64,000 nucleotides of DNA. Origin: Bacillota bacterium (lineage in GTDB: Bacteria; Bacillota; SHA-98; Ch115; JABLXJ01). Below the pieces are notes generated by a model that was not told the origin of the DNA, searched no databases, and saw nothing but the letters and a program-made list of their open reading frames with translations. Location of the stretch: NCBI GenBank assembly GCA_013178125.1, contig JABLXJ010000002.1, forward strand, positions 248,001 to 312,000, written 5' to 3'. Of the stretch, positions 16,842 through 18,391 are shown piece by piece. Position 1 is the stretch's first letter. Each line of letters opens with the position of its first letter. The position numbers and the translations under genes were made by a program.

Positions 16842-16997
16842 ATCTGCTCACATCCCATCCAACTCACTCTCTAATTCCTACCCCAAATTCCGCTTGGCCA
16901 TATCCCCTGAGAATTATCATACTCTCATAATCCCATAATCCTCGTATAACTACAATTTATCCTATTCGATTCCTATATTGTTGTCAATTTGGATTCC

Positions 16998-17103
16998 GTT
17001 ACCCCGTTACCTCAGTACCCCAATACCCCGCTACCCCGCTAGTATCTCGGTACCCCAGTACCCCAGCGCCTCGGCACCCAGCACCCCGTTGCCTCGGTAC
17101 CTC
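16998..17103. repeat. Degenerate 8-bp tandem array
   Basis: About 13 units of consensus NNTACCCC (GTTACCCC, GTTACCTC, AGTACCCC, AATACCCC, GCTACCCC and so on). The period is 8 bp, broken once by an 11-bp unit and once by a 7-bp unit. It lies in the non-coding, pyrimidine-rich stretch upstream of the HTH-nuclease pseudogene. No function is evident. Confidence 0.85.
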
Positions 17104-17209
17104 ACAGCATGCCCACCATCTATTCGGCCTCAATTTATAAATCCATGTTCTACAGCCATATTCTGCGATCATTAATCCGCCTCTACCATCGTTGAATCAA
17201 TATTCATCG

Positions 17210-17384
17210 GTCATCCGGTGAGCATTAATTTACCATCGCAATCTGTCATCCGGTGAATATCGGTTCGCCATTACGGTCAGTTACCCGGTGAGCACCAATT
17301 TGCTGTCATGATTAGTCACCCGGTGAGCACTAATTCATCGCCACGATCAGTCACTCGATGAACATCTGATAATCGGGTGATACT
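17210..17384. repeat. 35-bp tandem array with a palindromic core
   Basis: Five units start at 17210, 17245, 17280, 17315 and 17350, exactly 35 bp apart. The left part is conserved, GTCACCCGGTGAGCA with small changes; the right 20 bp are much more variable. The core TCACC-C-GGTGA is a near-perfect palindrome of 5-bp half sites. A partial sixth unit may follow at about 17385. The rigid spacing and conserved core look like a protein-binding array (iteron-like or operator array) rather than CRISPR, because there is no clean repeat/spacer boundary and no cas gene. Confidence 0.85.
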
Positions 17385-17453: not shown

Positions 17454-18391
17454 ATGAATATGGTTCCTAGAGACGTGTTGCTGGATGATGCCCTCGGTAT
17501 ACATGGAAGAATCCTATATGTAGTCATTGCGCTGAATGCCGTTGAGGGACAATGCATAACCCGAATTGGGGAGCTTATGAGGTTGACCGGGTTCCGGAGC
17601 CCAAATACAGTCAGGCGATACCTGAAGCTATTGGTAGACAGGGGTTGGGTAGAGCCTATTAAATCTGATACTAAGTATAAGGCCATAAATTTACACCGGT
17701 TTACCAACACGTCCCAGGGGTTACCGGTGTTGCGTTCCGGGGACGGCGCGCTTGCGGCGCGCCTCCGTTGAAATTTGGCGCGAGGGCATTGCCAAATTTC
17801 AAAGGCCCCGTCACGCAAGCACCGGTAACCCCTGGAAAAGTGGCGATGATTTTTGGACTTATACTTAGATGGAAACTGGTTGTTAAACCTCGGAACCCAA
17901 TCCGGGAGGCTAGGATACGCAAGGCTGAAGAGCTTTGGAAGGCACTGGGTGAGACAACCAATATAGGGGAATTTCTTATGAAGTCGTGGTTGGACCTGCT
18001 AGTGGATGACAAGGATTATGAGGATAATGCCAGACCTGATTTCCTGAAAAACCCGTTAACCGAGCAAAACTTGGAATATGATCGCTACTACCGGAGGGGG
18101 GTGGCATTCGAATTCAATGGACCCCAGCATTATGGCCCAACTGAGCGCTATCCGAATAAGAGGGGGGCCAGAGAGCGGAGGGCGCGTGATCTTGTGAAGA
18201 AAGCGCTCAGCATTGAGAATGGGGTCCAGCTGGTAATTGTCCATTCCCAGGACTTGACGCCCGCAAATATGGTCGCCAAGATTGGGAATCTCCTTCCATT
18301 GCGCGAATTTGACCCCAATGATCCCTATGGGACTGCCTTGCATAAGGCATCCAGGGCCTATATAAGACGTGTAGCGGGGAGATCTATCTGA
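17454..18391 (+). pseudogene. HTH-nuclease gene interrupted by a palindromic element
   Basis: Two frames that together look like one protein. The first encodes a winged-helix domain (ITRIGELMRLTGFRSPNTVR, then YLKLLVDRGWVEP). The second encodes a C-terminal domain with VAFEFNGPQHYGP, RARDLVKKAL and VQLVIVHSQDL, resembling the Vsr/DUF559-like PD-(D/E)XK nuclease fold. The frames differ by 2 nt and are separated by a 122-nt inverted-repeat element at 17714-17835. Removing exactly that element joins ACG TC to A AAA GTG in frame, giving a protein of about 270 residues. Before interruption it probably bound and cut DNA; the 35-bp array just upstream could be its target. The split halves may still be made separately, but no good ribosome binding site precedes the second. 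Confidence 0.65.
17714..17835. mobile_element. 122-nt palindromic insertion (MITE/REP-like)
   Basis: The ends are a 16-bp perfect inverted repeat, CCAGGGGTTACCGGTG and its complement, extending imperfectly to about 30 bp through TTGCGTTCCGGGG. Inside are two further hairpins: GGCGCGC around 17746-17762, and TTGAAATTTGGC paired with GCCAAATTTCAA around 17768-17802. No transposase and no target duplication are visible. Absence of duplication, hairpin ends and the GGGGACGG-like motif are compatible with mobilisation in trans by an IS200/RAYT-type enzyme, which is inference. It sits inside the HTH-nuclease gene. Confidence 0.7.

Follow-up and report, generated by a model that had tools for sequence, protein, structure and literature searches.

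The locus raises the question of how a gene came to lie in two pieces on either side of a 122-nt palindrome, and whether the palindrome itself is the unit that was inserted. A preliminary description of the window (the whole stretch of 64,000 nt of a Bacillota bacterium that was analysed) took the palindrome as the complete element. We found that the palindrome, whose 16-bp stem encloses two smaller hairpins, makes up only the core of a longer mobile unit. Taken as a whole, the feature is very probably a copy of a MITE, a non-autonomous transposon, of 192 bp whose terminal inverted repeats are imperfect; it lies in a CTAG of a gene with an HTH domain, has the TA duplicated, and splits the gene.

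The split gene and its homologue

The two halves of the gene were each aligned on their own, unjoined, with L177, an uninterrupted homologue of 252 aa from a genome that belongs to another family. The halves are as follows.

17454..17669, + strand: helix-turn-helix-like N-terminal half, with 49% identity to L177 (residues 5-75 of the homologue)
17870..18391, + strand: C-terminal half, with 62% identity to L177 (residues 83-248 of the homologue)

L177 is without the element, and it supplies the uninterrupted gene that had been proposed as a check. The halves had been named an HTH half and a nuclease half. The first name stands in part, as the winged-helix/HTH profile matches of the N-terminal half are weak and fall below curated cut-offs; the second is unproven, and the C-terminal half has no match in Pfam, NCBIfam, PADLOC or PDB. 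In addition, relatives of the split gene were found in three of four genomes of the order, with up to four in one genome.

Between the frame upstream (from 17454) and the frame downstream (to 18391) there is an offset of 2 modulo 3, and the removal of 122 nt does rejoin them, as had been claimed. However, a net insertion of 194 nt (192 bp plus one TA) is also 2 modulo 3, so either removal rejoins the frames and the 122-nt deletion is not a unique restoration of the gene. The length of the homologue fits 194 nt and not 122 nt, because the spacing between the anchors GWVE and RNP is 20 residues in L177 and comes to 18 residues in the window if 194 nt are discounted, but to 42 if 122 nt are. The gene, as these alignments indicate, is a once continuous gene that was split and put out of frame through the insertion of a dispersed element. 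The earlier idea of a precise insertion without duplication is thereby kept as to the interruption of a continuous gene, but not as to the extent, which is 192 bp plus TA, or the mechanism.

Three observations concern the surroundings of the break. Inside the element, TTGA at 17768-17771 combines the TGA stop of the upstream frame with an overlapping TTG start for the frame downstream, and coupled translation of the split gene through this overlap is conceivable. Just upstream of the gene, at 17210-17366, there are four direct repeats with 35-nt spacing (GTCAYCCGGTGAGCA...). Also upstream, at 16992-17121, there are irregular 8-nt repeats of the type TACCCCGT/TACCCCAG.

Extent and structure of the element

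The perfect 16-bp inverted repeat was found as described, with arms at 17714-17729 and 17820-17835 and 90 nt between them. It had also been taken as the place where the element begins and ends, and this is not the case: the sequence common to the copies continues outward to 17671 and 17868. In a genome of the same genus (called the relative below), the whole-length matches start at query positions 369-372 and end at 568-573, corresponding to window positions 17668-17671 and 17867-17872. The two entries for this genome, G001 and G004, have the same contig numbers and positions and were taken as identical. The parts of the unit are as follows.

17671..17868, + strand: whole unit common to the copies, including the target halves CTA...TAG, 198 nt (matches in the window genome, G000, and in G001/G004 run from 17670/17671 to 17868/17869)
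17672..17673, no strand: left TA of the target-site duplication in the target CTAG (from the comparison of empty GACGCGG-CTAG-TCGAGCA with filled C-TA-AGTG..CACT-TA-G)
17674..17865, + strand: the mobile element itself, non-coding and 192 bp long, its terminal inverted repeats imperfect (from the comparison of the terminal repeats and the copies in both genomes)
17674..17713, + strand: left arm (LA), conserved outside the core in most full copies
17714..17729, + strand: inner stem, left side, of the 16-bp perfect inverted repeat, covarying with its partner
17730..17819, + strand: inner core, found in both orientations relative to the arms in other copies
17745..17763, + strand: sub-hairpin GGCGCGC-TTGCG-GCGCGCC of the predicted fold
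17768..17802, + strand: sub-hairpin TTGAAATTTGGC...GCCAAATTTCAA of the predicted fold, which served as the pattern for the genome scan
17820..17835, + strand: inner stem, right side, of the same inverted repeat, covarying with its partner
17836..17865, + strand: right arm (RA), conserved outside the core in most full copies
17866..17867, no strand: right TA of the target-site duplication (from the same comparison of empty and filled sites)

The terminal inverted repeats are imperfect (CTAAGTR...YACTTAG), and nearly all full copies have the ends CTAAG and CTTAG. The arms that most copies of the window genome share outside the core measure about 43 nt (left, from CTAAG) and about 33 nt (right, to CTTAG). 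Full copies mostly measure 195-200 nt and the element about 190-200 bp; the 192-bp element is without a transposase gene. Using DNA parameters, the fold of the 122-nt palindrome was −58.3 kcal/mol against a mean of −28.9 for shuffled sequences (z −10.2), and none of 200 shuffles was as low. The case advises caution: the most perfect palindrome should not be taken as the ends of an element.

Copies and distribution

A search of the genome for further copies had been proposed, and such copies exist. In the window genome (3.48 Mb in 54 contigs), the 122-nt core has 25 matches that measure about 100 nt or more, besides shorter fragments. Full copies number 18 in this genome and 30 among the fetched loci of the relative, 48 in total. 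A scan of 84,980 species genomes with the sub-hairpin pattern gave 98 stretches, of which 97 lie in one Bacillota MAG, the relative (Bacillota bacterium AS04akNAM_80). The remaining stretch (L112, from a Burkholderiaceae MAG) is a short palindrome only, has no match to the element profile and was rejected. Meanwhile, a remnant of the family (L185) was found in one genome from another family of the same order. Searches of viral contigs by pattern and of plasmids and phages by DNA similarity gave no match to the element, and Rfam gave none up to E 1. The element is short and non-coding, has terminal inverted repeats and occurs in many dispersed copies, which are the characters of a MITE.

Some copies depart from the common length. 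Four of them (L026, L027, L028 and L031) are shorter, for example 132 and 134 nt, and are without the inner part of the core; the loss apparently came about by deletion between short repeats of the GCGCGC type.

Target site and duplication

In the relative, many copies sit within another repeat, between GGACGCGG and TCGAGCA. A search for the element-free junction found three empty sites in that genome, GACGCGGCTAGTCGAGCA, that is, GACGCGG-CTAG-TCGAGCA, against GACGCGG-CTAAG...CTTAG-TCGAGCA in the filled sites. On the left, about 70 nt of flank resemble the filled sites, and on the right the resemblance is shorter. All three empty sites are members of one repeat family, and therefore they are evidence for one ancestral insertion only. 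A target-site duplication is in this way seen from an empty site for one insertion event in the relative, at another site than that of the window.

The preliminary description reported no target duplication. With the true ends, however, a TA stands on each side of the element within CTA...TAG. We prefer, as the simplest reading of these letters, an insertion into CTAG in which TA would have been duplicated and the element proper would be AGTG...CACT. The same letters also fit an insertion of AAGTG...CACTT between CT and AG without duplication. The TA duplication is preferred because it is the rule for IS630/Tc1-mariner elements (PMC2170065).

Two sites were compared across the genomes. At L093 and L028 the spacer has diverged and there is no clean CTAG; at L019 and L091 a different repeat occupies the site in the relative, and there is no clean empty site. 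At the latter, a remnant of the other repeat family lies near position 3204 of L091 where the window genome has L019, so two families are found at the same spot after a gene. In addition, GACGCGGTCGAGCA without CTAG (L171 and L172) was considered as an empty site and rejected, as its sequence context is different and similar in both genomes. The TA duplication and the CTAG target agree with an element of the IS630/Tc1-mariner type; a preference of IS630 for CTAG was reportedly described by Tenzen and Ohtsubo in 1991, to judge from the title of that reference.

A second split gene

The copy at L002 is identical to the window copy at 197 of 198 positions, with one difference, and the flanks of the two are unrelated. 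The frame that enters the L002 copy encodes an ADP-ribosylglycohydrolase (PF03747, E 3.4e-35) and runs into a stop within the left arm, ahead of the core. The 32 residues of the downstream piece align at 39% identity with residues 283-311 of a Rhodothermus homologue, in its C-terminal tail (E 0.008 in a two-sequence comparison), and its comparison with an Allochromatium homologue was not significant (E 5.2). The upstream and downstream pieces meet where the Rhodothermus homologue continues. L002 would represent a second, independent insertion, which fits the longer unit and, as its reading frame indicates, could not fit a unit of 122 nt. Two copies so nearly identical suggest that the element moved recently, and conversion between the two is also possible. 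The ADP-ribosylglycohydrolase frame (1002-1655 of L002) has further stops upstream, and the gene may have been broken already.

These copies also bear on the reading that the 122-nt palindrome is itself mobile, was inserted without target duplication and is able to excise exactly. Its exact inverted repeat of 16 bp and the frame restored by 122 nt speak for it, as does the occurrence of the core in both orientations between fixed arms that are less uniform than the core. However, the core lies between two arms in all 48 full copies. Precise excision was observed nowhere: L050, the sole nearly core-less copy, still has CCAGGGG from the stem; it arose by imprecise deletion and is no excised form. 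The stop in the left arm of L002 lies in frame before the core, and the homologue of the window gene is without the 24 residues that the arms would add, so that homologue lengths already contradict a palindromic unit. We consider this reading very improbable.

Orientation and probable exchange of the core

By simple matching, the core is inverted between the arms in 4 of the 18 full copies of the window genome. Twelve of the 30 full copies of the relative were labelled core-inverted; these include L082 and L151, which are 210-nt copies with a left-type arm at both ends, and L143, in which an arm is degraded. Among the copies within the host repeat of the relative, the right arm stands at all 42 left junctions, with the core one way in 24 and the other way in 18. 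At the right junctions, 4 of 27 rows were called RA on near-equal scores and were counted neither as exceptions nor as support. Eleven of the host-repeat copies are complete on both sides, and their arms are alike in 11 of 11; the core is forward in four (L067, L076, L090 and L120) and reversed in seven. Their core matches the reference at 0.93-1.00 when forward and 0.95-0.98 when reversed, against 0.62-0.66 in the wrong orientation.

On a tree of the left host flank plus the right arm, core orientation has to change 13 times, where shuffling gives a mean of 13.2, and the orientations thus do not cluster; the tree covers 40 of the 42 rows (two with short flanks were dropped), has one well-supported inner branch of 37, and proves no number of inversions. 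The mixed orientations would be explained if the element inserted once, the host repeat then spread, and the core inverted in place. The main rival to inversion is that short-read metagenome assembly produced the two orientations artificially. In its favour, both assemblies are fragmented into many contigs, and in the relative a large number of these break off within the element. However, the common stem is only about 16 bp, shorter than the usual assembly word lengths, so both joints should exist in the reads, and the more contiguous window genome (54 contigs) also has its four inverted cores. We regard an artefact as unlikely.

Meanwhile, the two sides of the stem agree more within copies than between them. 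The mean distance was 1.82 against 4.09 after shuffling in 17 copies, and 2.96 against 4.27 in 26 copies, with 0 of 2000 shuffles as low in each case; the pattern skipped 5 of the 48 copies, and at least three mis-cut rows of the relative (L099, L100 and L114) were kept and raise the mean that they enter. In 17 chosen copies of standard orientation, 98.8% of the stem cells pair, and 6 of 16 pairs have changed on both sides, with few one-sided changes; none of 500 shuffles had as high a covariation score. Furthermore, L011 and L144, an insertion common to both genomes, differ at 0 of 44 and 0 of 34 columns in the arms, at 6 of 16 and 6 of 17 in the stems, and at 3 of 90 in the inner core. Therefore, the stem was replaced on both strands at once, with no change in the arms. 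Of all parts of the element, the inner core varies least (mean pairwise difference 0.039, against 0.106 and 0.236 in the arms).

A structured RNA, or a regulatory element that belongs to the gene and was not inserted, would also give the covariation and the strong fold. However, dozens of copies lie in unrelated contexts, the homologous gene is without the element, Rfam has no match to it, and no conserved position beside one gene family across genomes was seen. In addition, both stem strands change at once with few one-sided intermediates, as conversion would give. A native element is hardly credible here.

We read the inversion and exchange of the core as taking place through its self-complementary stem; the core may flip and be exchanged either when a hairpin primes template switching or when copies undergo gene conversion with one another. 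A bolder version is that the core is a cassette which inverts and is exchanged in place at a high rate within a stationary MITE, through the self-complementary stem, by a dedicated or hairpin-specific process and not by ordinary recombination, and that this is shared with a second, unrelated repeat family of the genus. We hold this version to be doubtful. As to other repeats, the host repeat of L063-L160 in the relative has ends of its own, CTAAGTTAGTGCGC...GCGCACTAACTTAG (for example near position 7465 of L099), with two alternative arms. Either arm can adjoin the same inner junction, as if a core flips there too.

A gene broken by a MITE is in itself ordinary, and the apparent inversion and exchange of the core in place are the new aspect of an otherwise ordinary MITE. 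No MITE with an inverting core is stated in the titles and abstract openings of the papers that the literature searches brought up. The inversion and homogenisation of long palindromes are usually studied on plasmid constructs. Here, one genome holds many copies of one ancestral insertion, in which arms and flanks form a fixed frame for scoring the core copy by copy, and such copies open a way to study these two processes in bacteria.

Search for a mobilising transposase

From the target and the ends, a transposase of the IS630/Tc1-mariner type probably moved the element by cut and paste, and it may since have been lost from, or be missing in, the assemblies. DDE_3 (PF13358), searched for in the window genome and in four genomes of the order, has six matches in the window genome and none in the relative. 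Eight DDE_3 loci in the order were tested, and all eight were without TA-flanked terminal repeats, in a test run without a positive control. No autonomous element sharing the ends was found in four draft genomes of the order. In addition, the end pattern gave no inward pair 0.8-2.5 kb apart among the matches listed (all 19 of G000 and part of the 122 of G004). The element is best read as an orphan MITE.

Comparison with known systems

The Rickettsia palindromic element (RPE) inserts in frame and is translated along with the host gene. We rejected this class for the present element, as both gene copies are out of frame or stopped. Elements of the REP/IS200-IS605 type are short units without terminal inverted repeats or duplication; this class was also rejected, as the present element has inverted terminal repeats and TA on both sides.

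Members of IS630/Tc1-mariner, such as IS630 and ISY100, are like the present element in inserting into TA with a 2-bp duplication (PMC2170065). However, they encode a transposase and the present element does not. MITEPsy1 of Pseudomonas syringae is an IS5-type MITE of 100 nt with the target CTAG or YTAA (PMC3189936), and it duplicates 4 nt. In the present element only TA can be duplicated, because the left junction reads CTAAG and the right CTTAG.

RUP of Streptococcus pneumoniae, a MITE linked to IS630-Spn1, is the same kind of element as the present one: both are about 100-200 bp and non-coding, have terminal inverted repeats and a TA target, and can interrupt genes, and RUP has about 100 copies (PMC2229807). 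However, its sequence is different, and its repeats are common to a known IS630 element, whereas no partner was found for the element here. The passages of PMC2229807 that were consulted report no flipping core for RUP. Finally, the Correia/NEMIS elements of Neisseria are likewise small palindromic MITEs with TA at the ends, and they have long stem-loop transcripts and size classes that differ by an internal block (PMC2229807). They differ in their repeats and their host, and in the element described here the internal block is also found inverted within fixed arms.
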